Assembly: GCF_030518215.1 (NCBI RefSeq)
Contig: NZ_JAULRT010000032.1
Coordinates: 186,001 to 250,000 of the forward strand
Length of the DNA stretch: 64,000 bases
From: Gilvimarinus algae
GTDB taxonomy: Bacteria; Pseudomonadota; Gammaproteobacteria; Pseudomonadales; Cellvibrionaceae
Direction of reading: 5' to 3'
Of the stretch, positions 1 to 61,437 are shown in pieces. The translations under genes and the position numbers were made by a program. The notes below the pieces were generated by a model. That model did no database searches and was not told the DNA's origin. It worked only from the letters and a program-made list of their open reading frames with translations. Position 1 is the first letter of the stretch, and every line of letters begins with the position of its first letter.

Positions 1-3000
1 CTCGCGCTGTTTTTGCTCGGTATAGGCTTGCTCCATTTGCTGGCGGCTTTCGTCCAGAGACTGGTTGAACTCGGCGATATCACTGGGAGCAAGGTGCAGG
101 TTCATCTCATCCATCAAACCGATCAGTGGCGATTGTGTCTGCAGTTGTGCAGCCTGCAACTCATCGGGCTCAGCGTCAGTATTGCTTTGCGAGGATTCGG
201 GGTCGTCGTCCGGCTCTTGGTACTCGAACATTGAATCCGCCTCGGGCAGCTCGGCGGGGAGGTTCGGTGGCAATAAACTGGCCGGATCGAGAATCAGCTC
301 GTTTTCCGGCACGGCGGTTTCCGGCTCCGGCCGGCTGCCAGTGTCGATGGGCGGCGGAGGCATCACCTCGATGTCCACGTCGGGTGTGGACGGATCCTCC
401 GGGCCCGAACCACCGCCGCCCGGCGTGAGAGGGTTATCGGTGGGTGGGTTTGTCTCATCGCCAGTCTCCTGCACCTGGATAATCAAGGAGCGCTCGACCC
501 AGGCGCCCTGATCATCGGTAGCCCGCAGCGTGATTACCGTGACGCCGCCGGCGGAGCCACTGGCATTGATCAGCAGTGAACCGGTTGCACTGTCCAGCCC
601 CACCACTTGCGCGACCTGCGGGTTACTGTTGGCGGTGACCGCGTAGTTGAGCTCGTAGCCCTGTTCGACATCGAAAAAACCGCCCCAAAAACCGGCGGGA
701 ATCGTCCCCGATTGTGCGTCCATCACAACGTCATTGAGGCTCATGTCGGTGACCACGGGCGGGTCATTTACGGCGGCGACAAACACGCGCAACCTGGCCT
801 CAAGTTGGGCGCCCTCAGCCGTGCTCGCCTGCAAGGTGATCAGGCTCTGGCCATTGGCGTTGGCGGCGTAATCGAGTACCAGCGTACCGTTTTGCGGGTT
901 GAGAGTGACGCTGGAAAACAGCTCGCTATTGCTGTTACCCGCGACGGACACGCTCACAGCGTCTGTACCCAGCGCATCGGCAAGCTCGGACCAGAGCGCC
1001 ACGGTGGTGTTCTCCGCATCTTCAAGCACATTAATGTCGTCGAGCACTACGGAGGCCGGCGGGGCTGGGCGTATGGTTAGGGTAAAGAAATCCTCGGCTG
1101 GCGGTGAGCTGCTGCCATCGCTGGCGCGCAGTGTCAGCGCCAATTCGCCGCTGTCACCAGGGCCCGGTGTACCGCTCAACAGGCCGTTGACGACATCAAA
1201 GTTCAACCAGGGCGGGAGCGCCGAGCCATCGGCCCGGAGCATCACCAGTGTCAGCGGATCGCCGTCGGCATCGGCAAACACATCGTCCGGCAGCGTGAGA
1301 GAAAAGGGCTCGCTCACCTGAGCCATCTGGTCGGCAAGAGGATTCACCAGCTCTGGTGGTTGGTTACTGTCCAGTACTGTGAGCACAAAGGTGTCGCTGA
1401 CACTTTCGTCGCCCAGCGTGGCGGTGAGTGTCAGGCTCAGTGTGCCTATGTCAGCGTCTGTGGCAACGCCTGAAAGGGTAAGGGTTTGTGGATCAAAGTT
1501 AAGCCATGCGGGTAGGGCTCCGCCTTGGGTTTGCAGTGTGTATTGGGGTGTGCTGCCCTGCGGAAAACTAAAGGTATCCGCAGCCAGGGTATAGCGATAG
1601 GAAACACCCGAGTCCGTTCGCTGGTCGGGAACGGGCTGGTTTAAGCGCAGTTCGGCCTCCGCCTCGGCGATGACCAGTTCAAAAGTGTCGCTGGCGCTGG
1701 CGCCGTCCGGGTCTTCTGCTCGGATTTCAAGGATAAAGCGACCAGCTTGCGGCGACTGGCTAACAAACTCGCCGGTGCCGGCATCGAAGCTCAGCCAGTC
1801 GGGCAAAGCACTGCCGCCGAGCAGACGGGCGGACAATTGCAGCGGGTCGCCATCGGGGTCGATAAAGGTATTGGCCGGCAATCGAAATTGCAGCGGCAGG
1901 TTTTCGCTGCCGGCTTGATCGCTCAGCGGCAGGTTCAGGCGCGGCGCGTCATTAACCGCCGCCACCGCGACAGTGAAATCGGCACTGGCCGGTGCGCCGC
2001 CATTGCCATCGTCTGCCAGTACGCGAATGTCCAGCGGCTGTGTGTCGTTGTTACCCGGCGTGCCGCTGAACGTTCTGGTGGCGGTATCAAAATTGAGCCA
2101 GCTCGGCAGCGCTGTGCCGCTGGTGAGTGTGGCGGAGTAGCTCAGAAGGTCGCCGTCGCCGTCGGCAAACGTGTTGACCGGTACCTGAAAGGAAAAGAGC
2201 TCACCCTCGGTGGCGAGCTGATCGGCGAGCGGGTTGACAAGCTGCGGGCTGTCGTTGGTGTTGAGTACCACAATGTCGAAGACTTGCACCGCTGGTATGC
2301 CGCCGTTGCCGTCGTCTGCGAACAGCTCAATGCTAAGCGTGCCCACATCGGCATTGCCCGGTGTGCCGGTAAAGCTGCGCGTTGTGACATCAAAACTCAA
2401 CCAGGCTGGCAGTGCGCCGCCGCCAGCGAGCTGCGCGCTGTAGCTCAGGGCATCGCCGTCGTCATCGGCAAACGTGTTGGCGGCAAACTGAAAGTTAAAA
2501 GCGGTATCTTCTGTCGCTGTCTGGTTGGCAATGGGGTTGGCCACTTGTGGGTCATCATTTATGTTGACGACCTCTAAGGAAAACACATTGCTGGTGGCGC
2601 TGCCGCCATTGCCATCGCTGGCGACCACTTCAATGCTGAGGGTGCCGGTATCGGCATTGGCGGGCGTGCCGCTGAAGGTGCGGGTGGCGCTGTCGAAGCT
2701 GAGCCAGGCCGGCAGCGCCGCGCCGCCGCTCAGACGCGCTGTGTAGCTGAGGGCATCGCCATCGTCGTCACTGAAAACCGTGTTGGCAAACTGAAAACTA
2801 AAGGGAGTGTCTTCGGTGGCCTGTTGATCGGCGATGGTCTCGACGGCGACTGGGGCGTCGTTGGTGTTGATGACCGTGAGGACGAAGCTATCCATGGCTG
2901 CCGCGCCGCCTTTACCGTCGCTGGCAATGAGCTCTATGGTGATACTGCCAACGTCGTCATTGGTTGGGGTGCCGCTAAAGGTGCGGGTGGCGCTATTAAA

Positions 3001-6000
3001 GTTGAGCCAGCTCGGCAGTGCGCCGCCGCCAACGAGCTGAGCAGTGTAGGCCAGTGAGTCAGCATCGTCGTCGCGAAAGGTGGCGGTGGAAAACTGAAAG
3101 CTGTAGGGCGTGTCTTCCGTCGCGACTTGGTCGGCAATCGGCTGCACGAGCTGAGGGTCATCATTGGTATCGATGACTTCCAGCAGGAAAGTATCGACTG
3201 CGGGGCTGCCGCCGTTACCGTCACTGGCGATGACCTCGATCACCAGTGTTCCCGCATCGGCTCCGGTGGGGGTGCCGCTGAAAGTACGCGAGGCCGCGTC
3301 AAAGCTGAGCCAGTCGGGCAGTGCCGCGCCGCCAGCGAGCTGGGCGCTGTAACTCAGAAGGTCCAGATCGGAGTCGCCAAAGGTATTGGGGGGGAATGTG
3401 TAGCTGTAGGGCTCATTGTCGTTTGTGGTTTGGTCGGGTATTGGATACTCGACAATCGGATCATCGTTGGTATTGGCGATGACGAGTTCGAAGGATTCTT
3501 TGGCGATGCCACCATGGCCATCATTGGCAAAAACATCAATGGTCCAGGTAATGGAATCGCTCTCACCCGGTGTGCCATAAAAACGTCGGTTGGCCGCATC
3601 GAAGGTCAACCAAGGGGGCAGAGGGTCACCGCCCGACAGTAACGCCGAATAAGCCAGGGAATCGCCATCGGCATCGGTAAAGGTGTTGGCGGCGAAGGTA
3701 AAATCAAAGAACACGTCCTCGGCGCCGCTTTGGTCTGGGATGGCGTTGCTGATGAGGGGCGTAGTGTTGGTGCCGGCGACTTGAAAGGCGAGGTCGCGCC
3801 CTGGATCGCCGATGCCGTTGTGATTGTAGTATTGATAGCCTGCGTAGACATCGGTGTTGTGTATGCCGACAAAGACCAGTGGGTCGGCATTGCTGCCGCT
3901 GGCGGCCACGCGAATAAAATACTCTTGGCCGACATTCAGCTCCGTGTTGCCCATGTCGAACGATTGCCAAGACAGCGTATCGGTCAGCACATCGGAGGAT
4001 AAGGTGTTGGAGGCGAGCACACTGCCGCCGTAACCGCTTAACAACTCGAGCGTGACAGTTTGTGTCGATGTATCGATGGCGCCGGGGTTGGCGCGCAGCA
4101 GTACGGATATGTTGTCGACCACATAGGTGCCGCTGCCATCGTTTTCGGCAAAGCTTTGATAGGCGTCCTGCCCGGCGGCAATGCCGGTGCTGTCGGCGGC
4201 TGCGCCCGAGCTTTCAAAAATTTCATCGTCGTCCGCCGGCTGTCCTGCAACGGTCAGGGTGAAGCTGTCACTGGCCGGTGTACCGCCATTGCCGTCGTCG
4301 GCGAAAACCTCAATATCAACAGCGCCTATATCGCCATTGCCCGGAGTGCCGCTAAAGGTTCGGGTTGTGCTGTCGAAGTTCAGCCAGCTTGGCAGTGCGC
4401 CGCCGCCAACCAGGGCGGCGGAATAACTGAGTACATCGCCGGCGTCTTCGTCGCCGAAATAGTCGGCGGGAATGGTAAAGCTGGTGGCGTTGTTTTCCGT
4501 TGCAATTTGATCTCGCAGTGGGAAGCGCACAAAAGGATCGTCGTTGGTGTTGACGATGGTCAGGGTAAAGGTGTCGGTGCTGCTCGCACCGTGATTGTCG
4601 ATGGCGATGACTTCGACATTCATGGTGCCGATATCGTCGGCGCGCGGTGTGCCACTGAATGTCAGGGTCTGATCGTTGAAGACCAGCCAGTCGAGTGAGC
4701 CGCCGCCGGCGAGCTGAGCGCGGTAGCGCAGAGTGTCATTGTTGTCCGGGTCGGAAAACATGTTGGCCGGCAGGGTGTAGCTGAAAGGCGCATCCTCGGC
4801 AATGGTCTGGTCGGTGGTGGGGTTATTCAGCACGGGGCCAAGGTTCACACCGTCGTCTTCGCTGACTTTGAACGCCAAGTCCCAGCCATCGGTATTAATG
4901 GCACCGCCATCGATATAGGCTGCACCGTTGTAGCGGTTGCTGTTGTGCGAACCCACCAGGATTTCACCGTCGTTGGCATCGGTGCTGACACGAATGTAGT
5001 AGGCCTGACCATCGTTGAGGTTGATCTCGGCAAAACTGAAGGTGTGCCATTCAAATCCTGTGTCGCTGATCTGTGCCGACTCGATACTGGCGCTGGCGAG
5101 AGCGGCGCCATCCCAGGCGTCACTGATTTGTACGGTCACTGTCTGCGGCTCTGCACTTTGATAACGGGCCAGTTGCAGCGAGACTTCGTTGACGGCGTAG
5201 GTACTGCCGGGGCTGTCGTAGACGTACACCTGGCCGACGTTATTGCTGGCCGAAACATTCAGAAACTGATTGCCGCTGTCGACGAACACATGATTGGTAT
5301 CAATCAGCAGGCTTTTCCAGTGACTCAGGGCGAGGCTGCTGCCCAGGCTGTTTGACTCGACTTGCCCGGTGTGAAATTCCAGCTCCCAGTCACCGCCCAG
5401 CTCGCTGTGGCCGGTCGCATCAGTGCTGGCGGCGACGTCGGCACCTGTTAGATCGCCTATCCTGGTCAGTAGGCTGTGGCCCTGTGGGTTGGCGGCGAGG
5501 TGGCATCCGTAAAGGAGTATGTCGGCGCTTTCGCTTAAGCTGTTACGCCATTCGGCGAGCGGTTGGCTGTAGGTCTCAATGGTGGCGTCATTGAGCTGAG
5601 TGTTACCCAGCTGCAGGCTGCCCGCGTTGCTGTGAGTGAGAATATGCAGACTATCCAGATTGCGGTAGGTCTCAAGTAGGGTACTGATCTGCTCAATGCC
5701 GCTGGAGTCGCCGTCGATAAAGACAATATCTGTCTGGTTATGACTGGCGTCTTGTGCCAGTGAGTCGGCCAGTTGTTGGTAATCGTCAACCCGGGTGTCG
5801 ATGATGATTAACTGTCGCGTCTCGAGCCTTGACTGGCGGGCGGCATCATCATTGTCTGGGTCGGCGCTGTGGTAAACCTGCAGCAAGTCCGTCTGGTGGG
5901 CGCTGTCGAGCAGCAACCAGTCTTCTGAGTAGGTGTCGTCCAGCAATAGGCCATCCGCTGTTGCAGAGAACAGCAAGCGCGGTTCAAGAGGCTCGATTAA

Positions 6001-6036
6001 CGGTCGCCTCCTGTGACCTGGCGCCTTTAGTGGCAT
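1..6036 (-). CDS. Giant LEPR/DUF4347 Ig-cadherin repeat surface protein (3' end beyond window)
   Basis: An open frame runs from the ATG at 6036 to the left edge without a stop, giving at least 2,012 residues. The start has AGGAG eight bases upstream. Residues 17-25 read LEPRLLFSA, the LEPR-type N-terminal motif of very large repetitive surface proteins. Residues about 50-235 are a DUF4347 domain with His135 (THSNAG) and Cys178 (LLYGCHLA). Then come a ~150-residue beta-rich module, two Ig-like repeats, a second copy of that module, nine more Ig-like repeats, and two diverged repeats. The visible end is a Pro/Glu/Asp-rich linker followed by Gln/Glu-rich, possibly coiled-coil sequence. There is no classical signal peptide; residues 8-12 are basic. 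A role as an exported adhesin or surface protein is inferred. It is the last gene of a co-directional cluster of membrane-fusion proteins and an M50 protease, which may export or mature it. Confidence 0.85.
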   Translation of the reverse strand, partial: MPLKAPGHRRRPLIEPLEPRLLFSATADGLLLDDTYSEDWLLLDSAHQTDLLQVYHSADPDNDDAARQSRLETRQLIIIDTRVDDYQQLADSLAQDASHNQTDIVFIDGDSSGIEQISTLLETYRNLDSLHILTHSNAGSLQLGNTQLNDATIETYSQPLAEWRNSLSESADILLYGCHLAANPQGHSLLTRIGDLTGADVAASTDATGHSELGGDWELEFHTGQVESNSLGSSLALSHWKSLLIDTNHVFVDSGNQFLNVSASNNVGQVYVYDSPGSTYAVNEVSLQLARYQSAEPQTVTVQISDAWDGAALASASIESAQISDTGFEWHTFSFAEINLNDGQAYYIRVSTDANDGEILVGSHNSNRYNGAAYIDGGAINTDGWDLAFKVSEDDGVNLGPVLNNPTTDQTIAEDAPFSYTLPANMFSDPDNNDTLRYRAQLAGGGSLDWLVFNDQTLTFSGTPRADDIGTMNVEVIAIDNHGASSTDTFTLTIVNTNDDPFVRFPLRDQIATENNATSFTIPADYFGDEDAGDVLSYSAALVGGGALPSWLNFDSTTRTFSGTPGNGDIGAVDIEVFADDGNGGTPASDSFTLTVAGQPADDDEIFESSGAAADSTGIAAGQDAYQSFAENDGSGTYVVDNISVLLRANPGAIDTSTQTVTLELLSGYGGSVLASNTLSSDVLTDTLSWQSFDMGNTELNVGQEYFIRVAASGSNADPLVFVGIHNTDVYAGYQYYNHNGIGDPGRDLAFQVAGTNTTPLISNAIPDQSGAEDVFFDFTFAANTFTDADGDSLAYSALLSGGDPLPPWLTFDAANRRFYGTPGESDSITWTIDVFANDGHGGIAKESFELVIANTNDDPIVEYPIPDQTTNDNEPYSYTFPPNTFGDSDLDLLSYSAQLAGGAALPDWLSFDAASRTFSGTPTGADAGTLVIEVIASDGNGGSPAVDTFLLEVIDTNDDPQLVQPIADQVATEDTPYSFQFSTATFRDDDADSLAYTAQLVGGGALPSWLNFNSATRTFSGTPTNDDVGSITIELIASDGKGGAAAMDSFVLTVINTNDAPVAVETIADQQATEDTPFSFQFANTVFSDDDGDALSYTARLSGGAALPAWLSFDSATRTFSGTPANADTGTLSIEVVASDGNGGSATSNVFSLEVVNINDDPQVANPIANQTATEDTAFNFQFAANTFADDDGDALSYSAQLAGGGALPAWLSFDVTTRSFTGTPGNADVGTLSIELFADDGNGGIPAVQVFDIVVLNTNDSPQLVNPLADQLATEGELFSFQVPVNTFADGDGDLLSYSATLTSGTALPSWLNFDTATRTFSGTPGNNDTQPLDIRVLADDGNGGAPASADFTVAVAAVNDAPRLNLPLSDQAGSENLPLQFRLPANTFIDPDGDPLQLSARLLGGSALPDWLSFDAGTGEFVSQSPQAGRFILEIRAEDPDGASASDTFELVIAEAEAELRLNQPVPDQRTDSGVSYRYTLAADTFSFPQGSTPQYTLQTQGGALPAWLNFDPQTLTLSGVATDADIGTLSLTLTATLGDESVSDTFVLTVLDSNQPPELVNPLADQMAQVSEPFSLTLPDDVFADADGDPLTLVMLRADGSALPPWLNFDVVNGLLSGTPGPGDSGELALTLRASDGSSSPPAEDFFTLTIRPAPPASVVLDDINVLEDAENTTVALWSELADALGTDAVSVSVAGNSNSELFSSVTLNPQNGTLVLDYAANANGQSLITLQASTAEGAQLEARLRVFVAAVNDPPVVTDMSLNDVVMDAQSGTIPAGFWGGFFDVEQGYELNYAVTANSNPQVAQVVGLDSATGSLLINASGSAGGVTVITLRATDDQGAWVERSLIIQVQETGDETNPPTDNPLTPGGGGSGPEDPSTPDVDIEVMPPPPIDTGSRPEPETAVPENELILDPASLLPPNLPAELPEADSMFEYQEPDDDPESSQSNTDAEPDELQAAQLQTQSPLIGLMDEMNLHLAPSDIAEFNQSLDESRQQMEQAYTEQKQRE
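1070..4845 (-). repeat. Array of eleven ~100-residue Ig/dystroglycan-cadherin-like repeats in the giant protein
   Basis: Repeat units of about 300 bp encode a common pattern: (L/V)xxPxxDQxATED near the start, SYSAxLxGGxALPxWLxFD in the middle, then RTFSGTPxxxDxG and a closing DGNGGxP segment. This is typical of putative-Ig (He_PIG) or dystroglycan-type cadherin folds. I count eleven units. Two lie before and nine after an inserted module at about 3770-4225. Units between about 1930 and 3430 are especially similar even at DNA level, suggesting recent duplication or homogenisation. Two more diverged units lie at about 460-1070. Boundaries are approximate because I read them by eye. Confidence 0.8.
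3770..4225 (-). repeat. Beta-rich module, copy 2, in giant protein
   Basis: Residues about 604-756 repeat the order of motifs of copy 1 at lower identity. The copy sits between Ig-like repeats 2 and 3, so the architecture is module, 2 repeats, module, 9 repeats. This implies a duplication of a module-plus-repeat segment during growth of the gene. Confidence 0.6.
4845..5325 (-). repeat. Beta-rich module, copy 1, in giant protein
   Basis: Residues about 238-397 contain an elements-in-order pattern shared with copy 2: a V(Y/N)xxSxxLxR-like strand, a QTVTVQ/QTVTLE strand, ALASAS/VLASNT, a W-x-SF turn, LNDGQAYYIRVS/LNVGQEYFIRVA, VGSHNSN/VGIHNTD and DLAFKV/DLAFQV at the end. It looks like a jelly-roll or carbohydrate-binding-like fold, but I do not recognise a named family. 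Confidence 0.6.
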
Positions 6037-6127
6037 GGGTGGCTCCTGAATGGGGTGTCCCCGGTTGAATGGCCTTTCCCTGTCACTGCATTTAGTGTGT
6101 TGACATCCTACTTCCAGTGTAGATTCT

Positions 6128-6143
6128 AGCGCCAAACGGCGCT
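6128..6143. other. Short perfect hairpin in the spacer upstream of the giant gene
   Basis: AGCGCC, a four-base AAAC loop, then GGCGCT. It lies in the 161-bp gap (6037-6197) between the adaptor gene and the giant gene. No T-run follows on either strand, so it is not a standard terminator; it may be a leader structure or a transcript-stability element. I see no other clear signal in that gap apart from the giant gene's ribosome binding site. Confidence 0.3.
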
Positions 6144-6197
6144 GCCGGGTGATGTGCTGACAGAACAATTTATCGCAAAAAATCGCTACTTATAACC

Positions 6198-7022
6198 TTA
6201 GGGCGCTTCAATACCCGAAAACTTCAGGGTGCAGCGCAAGCCGCTGGGCACTGACTGCTCCGGGTTGGGGAAGATCAGCTCAATACCAAAGGTGTTACTG
6301 GGCCCGTCGATGGTACGGTCAACCCTATCGACCTCCAGCGCTACACTCTGGCTGCGCTGGGCCAGCTCCGGGGTGAGCGCGGCGCGCGTCCCCGGGACAA
6401 TCTTCCCGTAGAGCGAGGCAGGGGCATAGGCTTTAACCCGCAGGGGGTCCAGCTGCGCCACCCTGACCACAGGCTCGCTGTCGATGTGCTCACCGGGCTC
6501 TTTGAATCGTTCCACAACAACGCCGGCCGTGGAACTGGTGATCGTATAGCGGGCCAGGTTCTGCTCGGCGCGCTCGTGCTCCAGTTGCGCTTGGCGCTGG
6601 CGATCTTTTGCCTGCTCAAGGCGCTGCCGGGCCAGGGCGTATTCGGTGGTCACTTTGTCGAGTTCGGCGGCCGAGGCGGCGTTCTTTTTCTGCAGATCGG
6701 TGACCCGGTCGAGGCTGCGCTCGGCAAACTCCAGCGCCAGCTGTTGTGCGGTAATGTCACTGGTGAGCTCGGCCTGGAGCTTGCGTAGTTGCACGGTCGC
6801 GGCCTCCAAGCCGGACTCGAGCCGGGCAATTACATCGCCGGCGTTTACCTGAGAATTTTTCTCCACCAGCACATCGCTCAACACCCCTTCTACAGCGCTG
6901 CTGATGTCCACCTCGACAAAGGGCTCAATGCGACAGTTGAGGTTGAGTGGCTCGCTCAGGGCGGGCAGTGCGGTCAGTGCGAGGCACAGCGGTAAGCATC
7001 GAAAAATAGAAACTGTTCTCAT
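6198..7022 (-). CDS. HlyD/RND-type periplasmic adaptor (small membrane-fusion protein)
   Basis: This 274-residue protein has an N-terminal signal peptide with likely cleavage after ALS at residues 21-23. A lipoyl/barrel-sandwich half follows (EGVLSDVLVEKNSQVNAGDVIARLES). Residues about 70-155 form a long Gln/Glu/Arg-rich alpha-hairpin. The second lipoyl half (ITSSTAGVVVERFKEPGEHID) and a beta-barrel region close the protein. The family bridges inner-membrane transporters and outer-membrane channels. It is the third gene of the minus-strand cluster, 67 bp after the M50 gene. No RND pump, ABC transporter or TolC gene accompanies it in the window, so its partner is either beyond the left edge or one of the neighbouring HlyD-fused proteins. 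That last point is inference. Confidence 0.85.
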   Translation of the reverse strand: MRTVSIFRCLPLCLALTALPALSEPLNLNCRIEPFVEVDISSAVEGVLSDVLVEKNSQVNAGDVIARLESGLEAATVQLRKLQAELTSDITAQQLALEFAERSLDRVTDLQKKNAASAAELDKVTTEYALARQRLEQAKDRQRQAQLEHERAEQNLARYTITSSTAGVVVERFKEPGEHIDSEPVVRVAQLDPLRVKAYAPASLYGKIVPGTRAALTPELAQRSQSVALEVDRVDRTIDGPSNTFGIELIFPNPEQSVPSGLRCTLKFSGIEAP

Positions 7023-7089
7023 GGCTGCCTGTTTTTCATTTATTTATTTCCTTGATCTTAGCATAGGTCCTGCGGAGTGTTTTTTGGCA

Positions 7090-9219
7090 TTAGTGGTCCA
7101 GCTGGCTGATGAACAGTTGACGCAGGGCCCGCCACCAGCGAAAGGCCAGAGGTTCGGGTGCGTGATGGAACTGCAAATAGGCCCTCTGACCGTAGTGTTG
7201 ATCAGTGAGAGGCTCATCGAGGATCACGTCCACAAGGAACACCATTTGTTCTGTGGTGGTGCCCGACTCGTCTTTCAGGCTAACGGCAAGGTTGCCGCCG
7301 CCAAGACTGCCCAGTACGGCGCTGGGCAGAGTGAATGTGCCCCCGGGAACCTCGCTCGATATTCGGCCGTGGTACGTCTGCGACAATACGCCTGCCAATT
7401 TGATTTCGATGTCGCGGGTGGCTTCACGCACCAAACCAATTTGCTGTTGAGTCAGTGCAACCCGAATCTTTCGCGCTTTAGCCGGTACCACATACGCCAG
7501 GATGTCGCCCTCGCGCAGGTACTGACCGACAAGCTCATGGTGGTCGGCAAAATACACTCTGCCAGCACTCGGGCTGGTAAGGGTCAAAGAGGTGAGCTGG
7601 CGATCTAAGTGCTCGAGCTCGCTTTGCAGCGCGCGGATTTGCTCAGACACAATGCCCGCTTCTGAGCGATTTTGGGCCCAGCTTTGCTGATACTGGAGCT
7701 TGAATTTCTCAAGATCGAGCGCCGCTATTTGCCGCTCATGCTTTAACTCTTCATTGCGCAAAACGGCGAGCGGCTGTCCGACTGCTGCGGTTTGGCCGTG
7801 AGTGGCCTCTAAGGTCTCAACAAATCCCGGCGCTGTTGCCAAGGCCCGGCTATCCTCCGGCAGCCAGACAACGCCATTCGCCTCTGTGGCCAGAGGCAGC
7901 GGCAGCACAAACAGCACAACAAGCAACATCGCAGGCGCCGCGATCAGAAAGCTGATCGCGCGGCTTCGCTGGCCTTTGAGCTGCGAGAAGCTTTGGCGCA
8001 GACTTTTACTCGCCGGCAGCAGCAGTTGAAAGAACAGCATCCACACTGCCAGAACGAGCGCGAGCGCCAATGAATAGCCGGCAATAAGATAGAAAATAAC
8101 GGCGAAAATAAGCCAGCGGTAGCCGAGCGCCAAAAGACCGTAGAGCGTCAGCGCCAGGGCTCCTCTGCGGTTGTGAGCCACCGCCCTGGTGCTTGCCAGA
8201 CCTAAGCCGTAGCGGTTCAACAGATACGCCAGCTGCGACTTTGCCCGGGCGGCTAGATTGGGCGTTTCGAGAGCGTCGCAGAGTAAGTGGTAACCATCGA
8301 ACTTGAGCAGCGGATTGCCGTTGAACAAAAGCGTGGAAATACTGCCCAGGAGCACGACGTTATAGAGCAGTTTCTGGATCAGTCCGGGCTCAACCGCCAG
8401 CCACAAAAGCAGCGCTACGGCGGCGAGGAACAGCTCAACCGCCATGCCAGCCGCACCCACCATAAGGCGGCGGTGCTTCTGTGCAAAACCAGAAGCGGCG
8501 GTAGCGTCCATGTAGGGTAGGGGAACGCCAAGAATAAATACCACACCGCAGTCGTAGATCTCACCGCCCCACACTTTTGTGAACAGGCCGTGCCCCAGTT
8601 CGTGCACGATTTTTAACGCGGGGTAGGTCAGCCAGAGTAGCAACAGGTTGCTTGGGCTCAGCAGCACTTCAAGGCTGGTGCTGCTGAGCTCTTCCCAGTG
8701 CACAAACGCCTGTATCAGTGCCCAGCCGACAATCCCCAGCCAGAGCAAGCCCATGGTCCGGCTCGCGAGAATTCGGGCCAGCCATTGAAGCCTGCTCAGC
8801 CATGGGTCCGGGCTGCCGAAGGATATGCGCCAGGTAATGGGGTTGGCGAGACGTTGAAGCCAGCGGCGTTTGCGCGAGTCAGTGCGCCGTTGGAACAGTG
8901 CATTGACGTCGGCAGGTAGGTCGCAAATCAACAAATCCGCCACATAGAGATATTGCAGCAGAGCCAGGGCATCGGCTTGTTCGGGCAGCGGCTGGTGGCC
9001 TTGAGCCTCGAGCCGGTGACGGGCAACGGCGAGCAGTTGCGCGAGAGTTTTGTGCCCGTCCATGGCCTCGAGCATTTCATAGGCGGCGGGGTCGAGCTTA
9101 TGGAATCGCGCTTTGGCTTTGTCGTGCAAGACATAGGCTTGTTGCCCTTGGTAAAGGCGCGGCTGGATCTCGATATGACGGACCAGCGATGGGCGCAGTG
9201 AACGGAGTTTATCCCACAC
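7090..9219 (-). CDS. PqqD-like / M50 zinc metalloprotease / HlyD fusion membrane protein
   Basis: This 709-residue protein starts with GTG three bases after the upstream stop, suggesting translational coupling. Residues about 15-105 resemble a PqqD-type peptide-binding domain (RFHKLDPAAYEMLEAMDG). A multi-pass membrane region follows, with the M50 zinc motif HELGH at 206-210 and the second-site motif NGNPLLKFDGY at 300-310. Further membrane segments extend to about residue 450. The C-terminal third is HlyD-like, with a lipoyl half, a helical hairpin and a second half (TSPSAGRVYFADHHELVGQYLREGD). The order matches the family annotated as putative peptide zinc metalloprotease proteins. Both zinc-site motifs are intact, so protease activity is likely. 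Its substrate is unknown; the giant protein downstream is the obvious candidate. Confidence 0.88.
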   Translation of the reverse strand: MWDKLRSLRPSLVRHIEIQPRLYQGQQAYVLHDKAKARFHKLDPAAYEMLEAMDGHKTLAQLLAVARHRLEAQGHQPLPEQADALALLQYLYVADLLICDLPADVNALFQRRTDSRKRRWLQRLANPITWRISFGSPDPWLSRLQWLARILASRTMGLLWLGIVGWALIQAFVHWEELSSTSLEVLLSPSNLLLLWLTYPALKIVHELGHGLFTKVWGGEIYDCGVVFILGVPLPYMDATAASGFAQKHRRLMVGAAGMAVELFLAAVALLLWLAVEPGLIQKLLYNVVLLGSISTLLFNGNPLLKFDGYHLLCDALETPNLAARAKSQLAYLLNRYGLGLASTRAVAHNRRGALALTLYGLLALGYRWLIFAVIFYLIAGYSLALALVLAVWMLFFQLLLPASKSLRQSFSQLKGQRSRAISFLIAAPAMLLVVLFVLPLPLATEANGVVWLPEDSRALATAPGFVETLEATHGQTAAVGQPLAVLRNEELKHERQIAALDLEKFKLQYQQSWAQNRSEAGIVSEQIRALQSELEHLDRQLTSLTLTSPSAGRVYFADHHELVGQYLREGDILAYVVPAKARKIRVALTQQQIGLVREATRDIEIKLAGVLSQTYHGRISSEVPGGTFTLPSAVLGSLGGGNLAVSLKDESGTTTEQMVFLVDVILDEPLTDQHYGQRAYLQFHHAPEPLAFRWWRALRQLFISQLDH

Positions 9220-9222
9220 GGC

Positions 9223-10902
9223 TTACCACCAGAGCGCGAGCCGAAGCCAATCGATGATGTCATGAAGCCAAATCCAGGCGAGCGAGCGTTTACCCGCTCT
9301 GATTTTTGCGGTTCCTGTCATGCCGGGTCTTAACAGGTCGCTGGGCGCTCTGAGCTGAGCTTCAACGCGAAAATAATTGCGTCCGGCTCTGACGCTGCTG
9401 ACCGGAGTAATGCGCTCCACGGTGAATCCAAAGCGCTGCTCCGGGAGGCTGACCAGCGCAACAGACCCCTCTTGCTCGAGTGCGACTTTTGCGATGTCAC
9501 GCTCGTCGACGTAAATCACCACCCGAAAGCCATCTGTGCTCGCAACTTCAAACAAAATGTCGCCGCGATTGACCGGCCGGCCAAGGGATTGGCTGATGTC
9601 GTCTGACACGAGCAGGCCGGAAATGGGAGAGCTCAGCTCTGTGCGCTCCAGAGTTTCATCGAGCAGGGCCAGGCGGGCCTGTGCCTGCTCGATTTGGGTG
9701 GATTTGATTGCGGCTTCGGCGCGTTCACCGTTGGCCAGGGCGTTGTTGTATTCCTGTCGATACTGCTGCAGTTCACTTACCTGTTGGCGGCGCTCGAGTT
9801 GCAGGTCGTTCTGTTTTAGGCGCGCCAGAATCTGGCCCTCTTGCACCGTATCTCCGGGGCGAGCACTTATGGACTCCAGATAGCCGTCCAGGGCGGCGGT
9901 GATGCTGACCTTGCGGCTGCCCTCAAGCTCGGCTTGGCCGGCAATGCGGTACTCAAAGGGCAAGCTCAGGATCAGGGCCAGCGTCAGCAAGGCGCCTCCG
10001 GCAGCCCAGAGCAGACCGCGGCGGTTCTGCCTTAAAGCCTGCTTTACCCATCCGGCGTTCCCGCCACCGGTGCGCAGGGCCAGCCACTGAGCGAGGGCGG
10101 GCAGCAGCGATTCGAGTTGGCGCTGCGCACTTTCTCCCTCCGTGTGTCTGTCTTGGAACATCAGAGTGATGACGCCCTGAGTGTGCTCGCCGCTGCGCAG
10201 CAGCAGCGACTCCACCCGCTTATATCCGGTTTCGCGTAGTAGCTGGCGGTGAGCGTCCAGCTCTGGTTTGTCTATATCGGGGGCGCTAATATTGCTGTTA
10301 GCGCGATTCAGGCAGCTCTCTTCCATGGCGCGAGTTAGCCTGCGGTAATCATCGGTGTGACGATTGATCTCGGCGGTGTTGGATATCGCCAAGATACGGG
10401 TTTTCTTTGCCCCGTAACTGGCCAGAGCTACCCGATCGGCGCCGAGCTGGTGGCAGAGTCGGTTGACGAGCAGGTTGGCGGCCTCATCCAGGTCGCGCGC
10501 TCGCAGAAGCTCATACAGTAATGGCTCCGTGGCCGGAGTTTGCTCGACGGTGCAAAGAGGCAGCCACTTTTCCGCCCACTTGATCTTTGCGAGGCTGCGC
10601 GTCAAACGCGCGCGGTTCTGTACAGTGGCGGTGATCACTGTCACGCCCCACAACCGCTCGCCGCTGAACAACGGGTGCGCTAGGGCGACATCCCGGCCGT
10701 GTTGACTGAGGCTCAATCTGCCACTCGCCTTGGCCTTTTGCCCCGCCTGCACTAACTCCCGCTCTGGTACTTGGCCCTCGGGCCAGCTTGCGAGGATCTT
10801 GAGATGGCCTTGCTCGAGCTGAAACAAAACCGCCTTTTGCGTGTCTGGCAAAAGGTGGCGCAGCAGTTGAAGCCAGCTGGTGTAAGAGGGCGTATTTGGC
10901 AT
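9223..10902 (-). CDS. GAF-HlyD membrane-fusion protein
   Basis: This 559-residue protein has an N-terminal cytosolic half of about 265 residues. It contains a GAF-like segment (RDLDEAANLLVNRLCHQLGADRVALA onward). A single membrane span follows at about residues 280-300 (RRGLLWAAGGALLTLALILSLPF). The rest is a HlyD fold: lipoyl half, coiled-coil hairpin, second half and beta-barrel with a FRVVIYVDERD segment. The frame stays open to 11004, but I prefer the ATG at 10902. An upstream ATG at 10947 lies inside a good -10 hexamer, and GAGG sits just before 10902. It is the first gene of the cluster. An intracellular sensory domain on an adaptor suggests the export step could be gated by a cytosolic signal, which is inference. 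Confidence 0.82.
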   Translation of the reverse strand: MPNTPSYTSWLQLLRHLLPDTQKAVLFQLEQGHLKILASWPEGQVPERELVQAGQKAKASGRLSLSQHGRDVALAHPLFSGERLWGVTVITATVQNRARLTRSLAKIKWAEKWLPLCTVEQTPATEPLLYELLRARDLDEAANLLVNRLCHQLGADRVALASYGAKKTRILAISNTAEINRHTDDYRRLTRAMEESCLNRANSNISAPDIDKPELDAHRQLLRETGYKRVESLLLRSGEHTQGVITLMFQDRHTEGESAQRQLESLLPALAQWLALRTGGGNAGWVKQALRQNRRGLLWAAGGALLTLALILSLPFEYRIAGQAELEGSRKVSITAALDGYLESISARPGDTVQEGQILARLKQNDLQLERRQQVSELQQYRQEYNNALANGERAEAAIKSTQIEQAQARLALLDETLERTELSSPISGLLVSDDISQSLGRPVNRGDILFEVASTDGFRVVIYVDERDIAKVALEQEGSVALVSLPEQRFGFTVERITPVSSVRAGRNYFRVEAQLRAPSDLLRPGMTGTAKIRAGKRSLAWIWLHDIIDWLRLALWW

Positions 10903-14602: not shown

Positions 14603-16633
14603 ATGAATAATTTTACGGATGGCATTTCCCGCAAGACACGTTTGGTCAGTGCGCTCATGGCAGCCGCTTTGTTGGGGGCGTGTGGCGGAGGTTCTGACAG
14701 CGGCGGGAGTTCATCCTCGGTGGTGACATCGAGTTCGCAATCGAGTGTTTCTTCTGAATCATCGCAAAGCAGCTCGGAATCTTCCAGCAGTGCCGGCGGT
14801 GGAAATACAGCGCCTCTGGTGGATGCCGGAGTTGATATGTCGGTCGCCGCCGGAGAGGCCGTGACCCTCACCGCTCAAGCGCAGGACGACGACGGTGAAG
14901 TGGTATCCCTCATTTGGGAGCAGGTATCCGGCCCTAGAACGCCGCTTAATCCCGTGGATATCGATGAGGGGGTTTATTCTTTTCAAGCGCCTAATACCGG
15001 TGTTGATGCCACCGCGGCTATGCAATTTCGACTGACTGCTATGGACGATGATGGCGCTGCGAGTTCGGATACCGTTATGGTCACTGTGTCTCGAGTGAAC
15101 CAGCCGCCGGTGGTGGAAGTGGGCAATTTCCGCACCGTCGCTGACCAGAGCACAGTGACATTAAGTGCGACGGCTTATGACCCGGATGGCGAGATCGTCA
15201 GCTATCAGTGGCAGCAAGTGGATGGTATGGCCGTCGAGCTGAGCAACGCCACCAGTAATACGGCGAGTTTTACTTTGCCGGCACTTGAACAGCAAGAGCG
15301 TTTGCGCTTTTCACTTAGAGTTGAAGACGGTGAAGGCGCATCGGCTTCTGATGCCATTACGATTGTAGTGGCCAGTTCAGATGCTCCCATTGTGTCATTG
15401 GATTTCCCGCCAGTGAAGGGTGTATTTAATGGCTCAGATATCGACGTTTTCGGGAGTGTTAATCTTGCCGAAAGCGCCGAGCTTGACCGTGTAGTTGTCG
15501 ACGCGGGAGTGGCACCTGTGACGGCTACCATTACAGAGGATGGCCACTGGCGGGCCTCAGGCGTGCTTCTGCCAGAAGGCGTAGCCAGTGCCACAGTAGA
15601 GATCGCGGCCTACGACAATCAGGGGCGTGTCGGCTACGCCGAGTCCGAGCTTCGCCTCGGTGAGAATCTGCGTACCGGGTCAGGAGAGCTTTGGATTCAA
15701 TCTACCGCCATGGTGTTGTCTCCTGCCGGAGATCAGGCGTGGGTCTTGGCTGAAGGCACTCAGGAGAGTGACCGCAAGCTCTTGGCGATTGATTTGACCA
15801 CTGGTCACAGAACATCGAACATTACAAATTTCTCCGACCCGGAGCAGGGTCAGTCTGCTTCAAACTACACAGATATGGTTTACGACCCCAATTCCAATCA
15901 ATTTTATCTAAGCGCTTGGCGCGAGGAGGAAGTTGAAGATTCAGAGACCGGAGAAAGCTATTTACAGGCGATCGGTAGTTTGCACACTGTCAATGCGACC
16001 TCAGGTGTGCGGGCACAACTAGAGCTTTCGGGGCCTGAGGGGTTTGAGCTTCTTGCTCCTCAAGGTCTCTTTCTGCGCAATAGTGAAACTCTCTATGTGG
16101 CTGATGAATATGGTGCTCAAGTTTTAAAGGTCAATCCTGTATCCGGGGAGACCCAGGTGTTAGCTGATATCAATACATCGCTTGAGGCCCTAAATGCCCC
16201 AGTACAGGTCGCTTGGAGCGAGAGCAGTCAGCAACTGTTGGTAATGCAGAGCTCGACCGGAGCGGTCGATATGCTTGGGCTCGACCTAACCCAATCTCCC
16301 GCTTTCTCAAATCTTATTTCTGAGGGGGAAGATATATCCTTCGGTCCAGTGCCCTTAGAGTCCTCCGAAAGCTTGATAGTGGACGACTCTAGTTTACGCG
16401 CATTTGTTCTAACAACTGCGGCTGACAATGTCACGGAGGTCGACATTGCGTCCGGAGAGCGTGCCATCTTAGTGGAAGACGTTGATCCCCAAGGGGAGCA
16501 GTCCAAGGACATGGTGTACCACCCCACCAGCGGCGTACTCTACACTGTGGGCGGTGAGGACTATTACCAGCAGCTGTTGGCTGTAGATCCTGACAGCGGC
16601 GACAAAGTGGTTGTCAGTACCAGCCGCTTTTAA
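14603..16633 (+). CDS. Ser-rich-linker lipoprotein with PKD/Ig-like repeats and C-terminal propeller-like region
   Basis: This 676-residue protein has a lipobox LLGAC with Cys27, so it is probably a lipoprotein. Residues about 31-63 are a Ser-rich spacer, as seen in secreted proteins of carbohydrate-degrading Cellvibrionaceae. Two PKD/REJ-like domains follow at about residues 70-160 and 165-255 (PLVDAGxDxSVAAGEAVTLTA; DPDGEIVSYQWQQVDG). Residues about 260-345 are another beta domain. The C-terminal ~330 residues contain repeated LAID, LHTVN, LYVADEYGAQVLKVNPVSG and LYTVGGEDYYQQLLAVDP segments, like blades of a beta-propeller. A binding or scaffold role at the cell surface is inferred. Its stop shares TTAA with the convergent permease gene, and no terminator separates them. 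Confidence 0.82.
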   Translation: MNNFTDGISRKTRLVSALMAAALLGACGGGSDSGGSSSSVVTSSSQSSVSSESSQSSSESSSSAGGGNTAPLVDAGVDMSVAAGEAVTLTAQAQDDDGEVVSLIWEQVSGPRTPLNPVDIDEGVYSFQAPNTGVDATAAMQFRLTAMDDDGAASSDTVMVTVSRVNQPPVVEVGNFRTVADQSTVTLSATAYDPDGEIVSYQWQQVDGMAVELSNATSNTASFTLPALEQQERLRFSLRVEDGEGASASDAITIVVASSDAPIVSLDFPPVKGVFNGSDIDVFGSVNLAESAELDRVVVDAGVAPVTATITEDGHWRASGVLLPEGVASATVEIAAYDNQGRVGYAESELRLGENLRTGSGELWIQSTAMVLSPAGDQAWVLAEGTQESDRKLLAIDLTTGHRTSNITNFSDPEQGQSASNYTDMVYDPNSNQFYLSAWREEEVEDSETGESYLQAIGSLHTVNATSGVRAQLELSGPEGFELLAPQGLFLRNSETLYVADEYGAQVLKVNPVSGETQVLADINTSLEALNAPVQVAWSESSQQLLVMQSSTGAVDMLGLDLTQSPAFSNLISEGEDISFGPVPLESSESLIVDDSSLRAFVLTTAADNVTEVDIASGERAILVEDVDPQGEQSKDMVYHPTSGVLYTVGGEDYYQQLLAVDPDSGDKVVVSTSRF

Positions 16634-49024: not shown

Positions 49025-50803
49025 ATGCCCCAGCCGCCGGCTGCAGAAAAAGTGCTGGATCTGCGATCTGTCATTGATGACCTGGTGAATGATGGCCGCA
49101 TGAGTCAGGCGGACGCCAATATACTGCTTGGAGCCAACCGCACTCGCTCGCAGACGGCGATGCACCCCTTGGCGTATGTCGCCAGCCAGGGCATTGACGA
49201 TCAGGCCCGCCCGGGCAAGCTGCTCGACGGCGAAGCGCTCACCCAGTGGATGGCCCAGCGGGCCGGATTGCCGGTCTTTCATATCGATCCACTCAAAATT
49301 GATGTCTCCAAGGTCACCTCGGTGGTGTCTTACGCTTTTGCCAAACGCCACAGTATTCTCTGTGTCGGTGTTACCCCCGACGAGGTGCTGATCGCCTGCG
49401 CCCAGCCGTTTCTCACTGGCTGGGAGCCCCAGGTCGAGCACGTTGCCCGGCGCAAGGTGACGCGGGTGTTTGCCAACCCGGCCGATGTCGCCCGCTACCA
49501 GATTGAGTTCTATACCCTGGCGCGTTCGGTCTCCGGGGCCAGCGGCGGCCCCGGGGCATCGGCCGTGACCAACTTCGAGCAGCTTGTGGATTTGAAATCC
49601 CTGGGCGATGCCGATGCCGACGACAAGCACGTGGTTAATATTGTCGACTGGTTGTTACAGTACGCTTACGATCAGCGCGCCAGCGACATTCATATTGAGC
49701 CGCGGCGTGAAGTCGGGCGGGTTCGCTTTCGCATCGACGGGGTTCTGCACGACGTCTATGAGTTCCCCGCCACTGTGGCCATGGCCGTCGTCAGCCGCTT
49801 CAAAGTGTTGGGGCGCATGAATATTGCCGAGAAGCGCAAGCCTCAGGATGGGCGCATCAAGACCCGCCGCGCCGATGACAGCGAGGTGGAGCTGCGGCTG
49901 TCGACCCTGCCCACCGCCTTTGGTGAGAAGCTGGTGATGCGGATCTTTGACCCCGAGGTCTTGTTGCGCAGCTTTCACGATTTGGGCCTGGTGGGCGACG
50001 ACTACAATCGCTGGGACGGCATGCTCAACCGGCCCAACGGGATAGTTCTGGTGACAGGCCCAACGGGCTCGGGTAAAACCACCACGCTCTATTCATCGCT
50101 GCGCAAAGTCGCGACCAGCGAGGTCAATGTCAGCACCATTGAAGACCCGATTGAGATGGTGGAGGAGCGCTTTAACCAGACACAGGTGCACCACAAAATT
50201 GAACTGGATTTCGCCGCCGGTATTCGCACCCTGATGCGTCAGGACCCGGATATCATAATGGTTGGCGAAATGCGCGACCTGGAAACCGCGCAGATGGCCG
50301 TGCAGGCGGCGCTGACCGGCCATCTGGTATTGTCCACGCTGCACACCAACGATGCCCCTGCCACCGTCGCCCGGCTGCTGGATCTGGGAATTCCCTCCTA
50401 CCTTATCAACGCCACCTTGCTCGGTATCATGGCGCAGCGTTTGGTGCGTACTCTCTGCCCGCATTGCAAGGAAGCCGGCAGTATCAAGCGAGAAGACTGG
50501 GATGCGCTGGTGGCTCCCTGGAAGGTGAACCTGCCCGATCAGGTGTACCGCCCCGTCGGTTGCCTGGAGTGTCGCAACACCGGGTATCTGGGGCGGCAGG
50601 GCATCTTTGAGATCCTGCTGCTGTCGGACACCATAAAAGAATTGATTACTGACGGCTGCAATCTGCAGACCTTGCGTAAGCAGGCCATGCGCGAGGGGAT
50701 GAGAACCCTCCGACTGTCCGGCGCCCAGAAAATAGCAGCCGGCTTGACGACCATGGAAGAAGTTCTGAGAGTGGCCCCGCCTCCCGAGCGCAGCGATCGT
50801 TAA
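49025..50803 (+). CDS. Orphan GspE/PilB-type secretion or pilus ATPase
   Basis: This 592-residue protein has an N-terminal MshEN/T2SSE-N region (about 30-190) and a RecA-like ATPase. Walker A is GPTGSGKTTTLY, the Asp box TIEDPIEM, Walker B IIMVGEMRDLETA and the His box TGHLVLSTLHTND. A CPHC...CLEC zinc-type cysteine set lies near residues 479-520 (LCPHCKEAG, GCLECRNTGY). Such ATPases power type II secretion or type IV pili. No other gsp, pil or msh gene is nearby, so its partner system is unknown. It is 16 bp upstream of glnE. Confidence 0.92.
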   Translation: MPQPPAAEKVLDLRSVIDDLVNDGRMSQADANILLGANRTRSQTAMHPLAYVASQGIDDQARPGKLLDGEALTQWMAQRAGLPVFHIDPLKIDVSKVTSVVSYAFAKRHSILCVGVTPDEVLIACAQPFLTGWEPQVEHVARRKVTRVFANPADVARYQIEFYTLARSVSGASGGPGASAVTNFEQLVDLKSLGDADADDKHVVNIVDWLLQYAYDQRASDIHIEPRREVGRVRFRIDGVLHDVYEFPATVAMAVVSRFKVLGRMNIAEKRKPQDGRIKTRRADDSEVELRLSTLPTAFGEKLVMRIFDPEVLLRSFHDLGLVGDDYNRWDGMLNRPNGIVLVTGPTGSGKTTTLYSSLRKVATSEVNVSTIEDPIEMVEERFNQTQVHHKIELDFAAGIRTLMRQDPDIIMVGEMRDLETAQMAVQAALTGHLVLSTLHTNDAPATVARLLDLGIPSYLINATLLGIMAQRLVRTLCPHCKEAGSIKREDWDALVAPWKVNLPDQVYRPVGCLECRNTGYLGRQGIFEILLLSDTIKELITDGCNLQTLRKQAMREGMRTLRLSGAQKIAAGLTTMEEVLRVAPPPERSDR

Positions 50804-50819
50804 TGATGTTGGAGACCCT

Positions 50820-53765: not shown

Positions 53766-53831
53766 CCCGCGCTGCCGTCGACCCTTGGACCACTATCCCT
53801 GTATTGAACTGAGACTTTTTAGGAGTTGGCT

Positions 53832-54761
53832 ATGTCATTTGCCGATCGCGACGGCGTAATCTGGCTGGATGGCGAACTGGTGCCCTGGCGTGACGCTCGC
53901 GTACACGTTCTGACCCACACCCTGCACTACGGCATGGGGGTGTTTGAGGGGGTTCGGGCCTACGAAACCGCTGAAGATGGCACCTGCATTTTTCGTTTGC
54001 AGGAGCACACCGATCGCCTGTTCCGCTCGGCGCACATCATGCGTATGAAGCTGCCCTACGATAAGGCCGCCCTCAACGAGGCGCAAAAGTGTGTGGTGCG
54101 GGAAAATAACTTGCACGAGAGCTACCTGCGTCCCATGGCTTTTTACGGCTCTGAGGGAATGGGTTTGCGCGCCGACAACCTGCGGGTGCACGTGATGGTG
54201 GCTGCCTGGAACTGGCCGTCCTACATGTCGCCGGAAGCCCGTGACATGGGCATCAAAGTGCGGACCTCCAGCTACACTCGTCACCACGTGAACATTTCCA
54301 TGTGCAAGGCCAAGGCGAACGGGCACTACATCAACTCCCTGCTGGCTCTGCAAGAAGCCCTCGACAGCGGGTGTGAAGAGGCGCTGCTGCTGGACAACGA
54401 AGGCTATGTGGCCGAAGGCAGTGGCGAGAACGTGTTTGTGGTGCGCGATGGCGTGATCTACACCCCCGAGCTCACTTCTTGTCTGGACGGCATCACCCGC
54501 AACACGATTTTTGCGCTGGCCAGTGAGTGTGGCTATCCCGTGCGTGAAAAGCGCATTACCCGCGATGAAGTTTATGTGGCGGACGAGGTGTTCTTTACCG
54601 GTACCGCTGCGGAGGTTTTGCCTATTCGCGAGCTCGACGGCCGAATGATCGGCGAGGGCAAGCGCGGCCCGATCACCACCGAGCTGCAGGGGTTGTATTT
54701 TGACGCGGTCAAGGGGCGCCTGCCCCAGCACAAAGGATGGTTAGCGCCGATCAAAGGTTAA
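53832..54761 (+). CDS. ilvE: Branched-chain amino acid aminotransferase
   Basis: This 309-residue fold-type IV PLP enzyme shows HTLHYGMGVFEGVRAY, ISMCKAKANGHYINSLLA (PLP Lys), EGYVAEGSGENVFVV and FFTGTAAEVLPIRELDG. It catalyses the last step of leucine, isoleucine and valine synthesis. AGGAG at 53821-53825 fixes the ATG at 53832. It is four bases upstream of the waaF start. Confidence 0.96.
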   Translation: MSFADRDGVIWLDGELVPWRDARVHVLTHTLHYGMGVFEGVRAYETAEDGTCIFRLQEHTDRLFRSAHIMRMKLPYDKAALNEAQKCVVRENNLHESYLRPMAFYGSEGMGLRADNLRVHVMVAAWNWPSYMSPEARDMGIKVRTSSYTRHHVNISMCKAKANGHYINSLLALQEALDSGCEEALLLDNEGYVAEGSGENVFVVRDGVIYTPELTSCLDGITRNTIFALASECGYPVREKRITRDEVYVADEVFFTGTAAEVLPIRELDGRMIGEGKRGPITTELQGLYFDAVKGRLPQHKGWLAPIKG

Positions 54762-54764
54762 CGC

Positions 54765-55790: not shown

Positions 55791-55832
55791 GCTGAGGTAT
55801 GCGTACAAGTTTTCACAGTTTGCGCTTTGGCT

Positions 55833-55853
55833 TTGCTACCTATGGCGTAGCAA
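55833..55853. other. Hairpin in waaF-waaL gap
   Basis: TTGCTAC, seven bases, GTAGCAA. It lies in the 180-bp gap 55791-55970. No T-run follows. It may be a weak attenuator or a stability element. Confidence 0.3.
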
Positions 55854-55970
55854 GTGTGATTCAATACGGGCCTTTAAGACCTTCAGTCGGTGCTGATCAT
55901 TCAGGGCCGGTTCAGCCGCTTATCGTTCAAATGGTAATACGCTATTCTTGCCAAAGGTATTCACAGGCGC

Positions 55971-58041: not shown

Positions 58042-58063
58042 CTCTGCAACTACAAAGGGCACT

Positions 58064-59836: not shown

Positions 59837-59845
59837 GGTAGATTT

Positions 59846-61276: not shown

Positions 61277-61334
61277 AGAATCATCGCCCCCTAGGGGTGG
61301 CGTTTAAATACACAACACTTTCCAATATCGATAA

Positions 61335-61390
61335 CAAAAAAATTCCACAGCGGCCAAACGCCAAACGGCCGCTGTGGAATTTTTTTGTTT
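61335..61390. terminator. Strong terminator after hldE
   Basis: ATTCCACAGCGGCC (61342-61355) pairs with GGCCGCTGTGGAAT (61367-61380), flanked by A- and T-runs. It ends the LPS operon and separates it from the GT9 gene. Confidence 0.93.
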
Positions 61391-61437
61391 TCAGTAAGAC
61401 TAATTTATTCCAGAAGTTATAGTACAGGACGTATTGT

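Follow-up and report, generated by a model that had tools for sequence, protein, structure and literature searches.

How a protein of more than 2,000 residues leaves the cell when it starts without a normal signal peptide is the question raised by a locus of Gilvimarinus algae. We analyzed a window of 64,000 nucleotides (bases 186001-250000 of the 447,980-base contig NZ_JAULRT010000032.1), in which four co-directional genes on the minus strand encode a protein with GAF and HlyD domains (GAF-HlyD), a fusion of a PqqD-like domain, an M50 intramembrane metalloprotease and a HlyD domain (M50-HlyD), a HlyD-family adaptor, and a giant protein with a short LEPR-type leader and a DUF4347 domain. An earlier note, made from the sequence alone, had proposed that the first three proteins, here called the machine, export or process the giant. 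The genes lie where that note placed them, with a 3-base gap between the first two (9220-9222); Pfam and NCBIfam matches agree with its domain assignments, PqqD alone being weak, and the giant is indeed longer than 2,000 residues, reaching 2,099 amino acids once 263 bases past the left edge of the window are added. We found that the machine tracks the LEPR leader and not DUF4347. The operon is probably, though far from certainly, a pathway for leader-specific export and processing that lacks an ATP-binding cassette (ABC), resistance-nodulation-division (RND) or major facilitator superfamily (MFS) engine.

Linkage of the machine to the LEPR leader

We searched 144 genomes of the family and found M50-HlyD homologues (called at E 1e-20) in 59 and DUF4347 in 65 (87 proteins). 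DNA covered the starts of 85 of these proteins. Three DUF4347 hits were left out as unreadable (two in genome G024, one in G029), and the starts of the other 84 were classed as LEPR-type (61) or Sec-like (23). The Sec-like class was judged by eye and by hydropathy (best 15-residue mean at least 1.39), without a signal-peptide predictor, and some LEPR frames reach a mean of 1.54 elsewhere in the frame. All 61 LEPR-type proteins come from genomes with M50-HlyD, and 52 are encoded adjacent to it. None of the 23 Sec-like proteins is adjacent (Fisher test, P = 1.1e-13, for sampled genomes that are related and thus not independent). Thirteen of them occur in genomes without an M50-HlyD match, while the remaining ten are paralogues in machine-bearing genomes and serve as an internal control. 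A first reading used a narrower LEPR pattern, and widening it moved proteins of G121, G032 and G125 into the LEPR class; without these, 58/58 LEPR-type proteins are in M50-HlyD genomes and 50/58 are adjacent. The expectation that machine genes stand beside LEPR/DUF4347 giants more often than chance was thus borne out for the leader and failed for DUF4347 as such, and DUF4347 was rejected as the export determinant.

Forty-eight LEPR giants lie within 20 kb of an M50-HlyD gene, 44 of them at 1.8 kb or less and on the same strand (the second fragment of a split M50 gene in G142 was dropped before distances were counted). Four further adjacent giants, of 9,587 to 12,013 amino acids, have reading frames that extend up to the operon. 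A profile of the leader only, built from proteins of M50-bearing genomes, gave 66 matches at E 0.001 or better in 55 of the 59 genomes with M50-HlyD and none in the 85 without. It also found leaders on frames that DUF4347 had missed (6,656 amino acids on contig 1 of G116; 4,673 on contig 40 of G112).

A wider sample of 299 genomes over the phylum, with Planctomycetes outside it, was scored for co-occurrence per genome (M50-HlyD by profile at E 1e-30, three candidates scored in each). M50-HlyD was present in 85 genomes, from 43 of 153 genera, and 83 genomes had DUF4347; 70 had both, 13 DUF4347 only, 15 M50-HlyD only, and 201 neither (Fisher test, P = 1.5e-39). We read the starts of eight proteins from seven of the 13 DUF4347-only genomes. 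One was Sec-like, one had a LEPR leader, and six, from five genomes, had neither leader in frame. A DUF4347 protein of this sample lies in an open frame of 14,920 amino acids (G149, contig 1:2731072).

The Sec-type DUF4347 giants look like a separate surface-protein family with a conserved neighbor of their own. At 10 of 17 such loci among L093-L112 (L093-L097, L099, L101, L103, L106 and L111), the giant follows a gene for about 280 amino acids with HFISGLPRSGSTLLA, which we take to be sulfotransferase-like. Several of these giants have a beta-barrel-like end in ...F.

The giant protein and the protease

The giant consists of the LEPR leader, DUF4347, immunoglobulin (Ig)-like repeats with 11 He_PIG stretches, and an end made of a hydrophobic segment, a DPLPIL motif and a basic tail. 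Its N-terminus, described in the earlier note as LEPR-type and lacking a normal signal peptide, is as claimed a basic stretch followed by LEPRLLFSA, without the hydrophobic start of Sec substrates. The LEPR-XLL model (NF012209) scores 16.3 bits against a cut-off of 17, over model positions 2-15 of 24. The leader profile (A2) matches this leader at E 4.3e-15, the leader itself being one row of the profile, and a scan of the whole genome with E values up to 5 gave just one more match (E 0.455). A passage in PMC10868602 places LEPR-XLL at the N-terminus of a giant Vibrio protein that it presents as novel. Surface exposure of the giant is favored, since by a general estimate an extended Ig-like chain of such length would outspan the periplasm.

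DUF4347 (PF14252) matches with 179.2 bits, above its gathering cut-off of 24.6, and the candidate catalytic His and Cys are kept in 85/85 family members read. An AlphaFold2 model of leader plus DUF4347 (5 rows) was poor, with a mean predicted local distance difference test (pLDDT) score of 53.3. Fold comparison with this model gave a SAVED-CHAT protease at Z 9.6, Tce1 at Z 8.4 and caspases at about 7, with ATP citrate lyase rows reaching 7 to 7.7; Foldseek with the same model returned no match at E 0.001 or better. As part of the literature, DUF4347 appears as a table entry in PMC12322963, a passage in PMC8262886 gives PA0256 a DUF4347 domain, and passages in PMC13323088 give this protein, Tce1, a His-Cys pair and class it as a putative cysteine protease. 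Because of the conserved His-Cys pair, the fold comparison, and the occurrence of both DUF4347 and the pair in Tce1, the giant may carry a cysteine peptidase domain of the caspase/CHAT-like kind (clan CD), for which self-processing may be one role.

M50-HlyD has the HExxH motif and third-ligand Asp of site-2-type M50 metalloproteases, and H206, E207, H210 and D308 are invariant in 30/30 homologues with identities as low as 21%, a conservation that speaks for an active protease. The Pfam M50 model did not match the protein itself at E 0.001, although it did match a homologue of the TolC clade introduced below (L079), so motif conservation and an NCBIfam match were used to call the M50 domain. 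This NCBIfam model, of the daptide M50 protease (NF041824), aligns to residues 25-399 with 118.8 bits, under its equivalog cut-off of 300; HlyD_3 was also matched. For the PqqD-like domain, PF05402 gave E 3.4e-4 and 21.3 bits, below the cut-off of 23.4, and matched 16/24 homologues at E up to 1. When a profile of the region was compared with the PDB, PqqD structures ranked first (3g2b, E 0.0032). Hydropathy shows five hydrophobic segments in M50-HlyD, and the PqqD-like domain is probably cytoplasmic because it is placed ahead of them. An AlphaFold2 model (7 rows) was of low confidence (mean pLDDT 61.9). Its best 50 Foldseek rows were adaptor-type proteins, the HlyD end resembling MexA and MacA, and a PHROGs search with M50-HlyD found no match at E 0.001.

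Operon architectures and gene order

The four genes belong to a conserved operon, and since the same order recurs across genera, the set is not a chance arrangement. The earlier note was right about the four genes and missed a coupled fifth that completes the operon. Beyond the left edge of the window, a co-directional gene whose start overlaps the stop of the giant gene (TGATG junction) encodes a membrane sensor diguanylate cyclase of 470 amino acids, with two hydrophobic segments by hydropathy and PAS and GGDEF domains by Pfam, which links the operon to a cyclic di-GMP (c-di-GMP) enzyme. CAGGAG stands before the ATG of the giant. The promoter claimed before the GAF-HlyD gene did not hold up, the single 9/12 match there being not above chance (1.7 expected in shuffles). 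Past the cyclase gene are genes in the opposite direction, read as AsmA-like and MutY-like. Feature coordinates are given in Table 1.

Table 1. Features of the operon, in window positions.
Feature	Position	Strand	Description
GAF-HlyD protein	9223..10902	-	559 aa (amino acids); Pfam GAF, HlyD_D23, HlyD_3; one hydrophobic segment (hydropathy)
PqqD-like/M50 intramembrane metalloprotease/HlyD fusion	7090..9219	-	709 aa; GTG start
PqqD-like (RRE-type; RRE, RiPP recognition element) N-terminal domain of M50-HlyD	8893..9198	-	PF05402, PDB profile matches
HELGH zinc motif of M50-HlyD (H206, E207, H210)	8590..8604	-	third ligand D308 at 8296-8298
HlyD-family adaptor	6198..7022	-	274 aa; RND_mfp above cut-off; hydrophobic signal-peptide-like N-terminus (hydropathy)
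Giant protein	1..6036	-	2,099 aa; final 263 bases left of window (L003:6737-6999)
LEPR-type leader of giant, RRRPLIEPLEPRLLFSA	5962..6012	-	leader profile match
DUF4347 domain of giant	5305..5811	-	PF14252; His135 at 5632-5634, Cys178 at 5503-5505

We compared 79 loci, picked for an M50-HlyD match and not at random and including two repeats (L035/L046 and L040/L151). Reading upstream from M50-HlyD, the first core gene met is GAF-HlyD in 78 of them. An M50 tree of the 77 distinct loci, built without regard to neighbors, contains three clades that we call types A to C, with nine loci outside all of them. The type A clade comprises 24 loci including this one (support 0.999), with the order GAF-HlyD, M50-HlyD, HlyD, LEPR giant and sensor gene. 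In the type B clade (support 0.88), 18/19 loci have a SecA-like ATPase, and one more SecA-bearing locus stands outside it and is counted as type B; over these 20 loci the order is a DUF3467 gene (11/20), GAF-HlyD, M50-HlyD and the SecA-like gene. In this ATPase the DEAD and preprotein cross-linking domains of SecA were matched, and the single upstream giant piece scanned (L063) has RTX repeats. Near two SecA-bearing machines are SapC-domain genes (L060:16946-18801 and L192:2103-2993), one of them with a radical SAM gene beside it. The type C clade (support 1.0) has TolC in 23/24 members, in the order TolC, HlyD, GAF-HlyD, M50-HlyD and DUF4347 giant, with TolC after the M50 gene in some; the giant is on the same strand in 19/24 loci within the stretch fetched. 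In adjacent pairs, the LL/MF part of the leader motif is followed by Ser in 35/35 A/B-type leaders and by Asp in 17/17 C-type leaders, a split that could be explained by descent alone.

The end of the giant also has its own pattern. A DPLP motif and a following sensor gene were found in 18/18 giants of this kind read to the end (those of L047 and L051 run into assembly gaps and are not among the 18). Fourteen of the sensor genes resemble the PAS-GGDEF gene described here, two are GGDEF-EAL-like, and two are kinase-like with a second GGDEF-type gene. Pfam scans gave PAS-GGDEF for L003 and L052, PAS-GGDEF-EAL for L071, and a histidine kinase followed by REC-GGDEF-EAL for L075. Because 14 of the 18 giants fall in the type A clade and four among the nine outside loci, the link to c-di-GMP occurs in two parts of the tree.

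Elsewhere in the window, 14603-16633 encodes a PKD/Ig protein of 676 amino acids that matches the C-terminus of the cellulose-binding protein Sde0182, below the curated use of that family. The interval 49025-62328 holds a type II/IV secretion ATPase with an MshEN domain, GlnE, and a lipopolysaccharide (LPS)-type glycosyltransferase cluster with an MsbA-like ABC protein (58064-59836).

Proposed export pathway, alternatives and known systems

In general, leader peptides are bound by PqqD/RRE domains, M50 proteases cleave their substrates in or close to membranes, HlyD adaptors span the periplasm as far as TolC, and SecA powers export. Building on the observed composition, gene order, leader-machine linkage and conserved protease ligands, we propose that the LEPR leader, which is basic and non-hydrophobic and replaces a Sec signal peptide on the giant, would be bound by the PqqD-like domain of M50-HlyD in the way PqqD/RRE domains bind leaders of ribosomally synthesized and post-translationally modified peptides (RiPPs). 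The M50 site may then cut in or near the leader. GAF-HlyD, M50-HlyD and the free adaptor would build a periplasmic conduit to a TolC-type channel, encoded in the operon in type C and presumably supplied from elsewhere at this locus. In type B the dedicated SecA-like ATPase could supply the energy, a speculative idea, and here the housekeeping SecA (one protein over the cut-off in this genome) or another source could do so. The C-terminal hydrophobic segment would hold the giant in the inner membrane, with its tail in the cytoplasm beside the coupled cyclase, and export or engagement of the giant could feed c-di-GMP signaling, a coupling suggested by gene order, gene overlap and charge pattern.

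Several observations weigh against this pathway, besides the relatedness of the genomes and the origin of the leader profile. The locus has neither an ATPase nor an outer-membrane channel, and the genome has an LssB-type type I ABC protein over the cut-off on contig 24. Nine of the 61 LEPR giants are elsewhere in the genome, and of the 48 within 20 kb, three are 10.5 to 13.9 kb off and one is on the opposite strand. Three orphan giants read to the end (L102, L104 and L105) have the C-terminal motif and no adjacent cyclase. Four M50-bearing genomes lack a leader match at E 0.001, four genomes without an M50-HlyD gene have weak leader matches in a search up to E 0.05 (E 0.0027 to 0.034), and in the phylum sample a LEPR giant occurs without an M50 match in G330, a genome that is 57% complete. 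Five of the 24 TolC-clade loci have no same-strand DUF4347 giant in the stretch fetched. Both structural models, of leader plus DUF4347 and of M50-HlyD, are poor and give the pathway no support on topology or docking.

Among the alternatives, maturation and signaling without transport survives best, though we regard it as unlikely. Sec would move the giant through the inner membrane, and M50-HlyD, as a regulated intramembrane protease, would cut its C-terminal segment and thereby switch the adjacent cyclase. The invariant M50 ligands fit this reading, as does the fact that the C-terminal segment and tail are conserved and that a c-di-GMP gene is coupled to them. However, the machine follows the N-terminal leader in all three architectures, and a DPLP end turned up only in the c-di-GMP subtype and is missing from L079, the only TolC-clade giant whose end was read; moreover, transport is indicated because three HlyD proteins occur together with TolC or SecA-like genes.

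It is more improbable still that Sec takes the giant through the inner membrane and that the LEPR leader has its role only after export, perhaps as a tag for surface sorting that the HlyD proteins read. In favor of this, NCBIfam names LEPR-XLL only as a domain, and a passage in PMC8567305 calls PF07595 of Planctomycetes a cell surface signal peptide. Against such a tag, LEPR-type giants lack a Sec-type hydrophobic start by hydropathy and by eye, and the PqqD-like domain precedes the membrane segments, which would place it in the cytoplasm.

That the giant is a substrate of an unlinked LssB-type ABC/TolC system, with the operon proteins merely helping or modifying, is very improbable: contig 24 does hold a complete LssB-type ABC and a TolC, but giants of its own lie next to this system, one of them matching the LapA retention module (NF033682) at 66.8 bits against a cut-off of 50, whereas the LEPR giant had no match to that NCBIfam model at E up to 1 and related operons have a SecA-like ATPase or their own TolC. 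On contig 24 (L213:1-19042), the LssB-type ABC, TolC, an adaptor-like gene and the giants lie side by side. The genome thus has two systems for giant proteins, of which the LEPR-linked one does not seem to resemble type I secretion. A linked type I system was also rejected. In the window and 40 kb to its left, a type I ABC profile found only an ABC-F-like protein and the MsbA-like one in the LPS cluster, and no TolC-type channel was nearby; the genome encodes five outer-membrane-efflux proteins, of which the closest is some 123 kb to the left of the window. A type I ABC/TolC system just left of the window, which the earlier note named as a refutation of its proposal, thus did not turn up in that stretch. 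The note's description of a core unlike type I secretion fits this locus, but the lack of TolC belongs to this subtype, related clades carrying TolC or a SecA-like ATPase.

The leader-specific export pathway, if true, would mean that an intramembrane protease joined to an adaptor can serve as the basis of protein export, with no ABC, RND or MFS engine; at this locus it would also be tied to c-di-GMP. LEPR giants, whose open frames can exceed 12,000 amino acids, have no recognizable export signal, and the pairing of leader and machine provides a named signal together with a candidate receptor domain, a protease and genes that can be deleted. If transport is not borne out, the set would fall back to RiPP-like leader proteolysis. 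A bolder and only tentative possibility is a new class of secretion system, present in 85/299 sampled relatives, in which a PqqD/RRE-protease-adaptor entry gate for LEPR giants is combined with interchangeable engines and outlets (the SecA-like and TolC clades), and in which the giant would here be a fiber, anchored C-terminally in the inner membrane, that passes surface contact to the diguanylate cyclase as a touch sensor. We found no description of the gene set in open-access PubMed Central papers, a search with preprints and most subscription papers outside it.

The operon shares parts with several known systems. With LapA/LssB type I secretion, itself linked to c-di-GMP, it has in common a HlyD-family adaptor, giant repeat proteins and, in the related clade, TolC. 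It differs in having no cognate ABC protein, an N-terminal LEPR leader, and an M50 protease fused to an adaptor. The adaptors also resemble the HlyD/MexA/MacA-like parts of tripartite pumps, with a TolC family member again in the related clade, but the operon lacks a gene for an energized inner-membrane transporter. For tripartite systems the abstract of the review PMC8277102 assigns this inner-membrane role to ABC, RND and MFS transporters. The type B ATPase shares the DEAD and cross-linking domains of SecA and accessory SecA2, yet it has about 660 amino acids and scores 552.9 against a curated cut-off of 862, and the operon described here has none. The planctomycete PF07595 motif, which we take to resemble LEPR, is likewise short and is named as a cell surface signal. 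Tce1 (PA0256), a DUF4347 protein loaded by the type VI system, shares the domain, the His-Cys pair and the fold match, but it is a small injected effector rather than a giant with a LEPR leader. Among daptide/LiaK-type RiPP M50 proteases (NF041824, NF058609), the daptide model aligns over the PqqD-like start and M50 core, whereas here the protease is fused to HlyD, scores under the family cut-off, and is partnered with giant proteins rather than small peptides. Judged from its genes, the composition of the operon appears to be new, fitting none of the kinds compared here.

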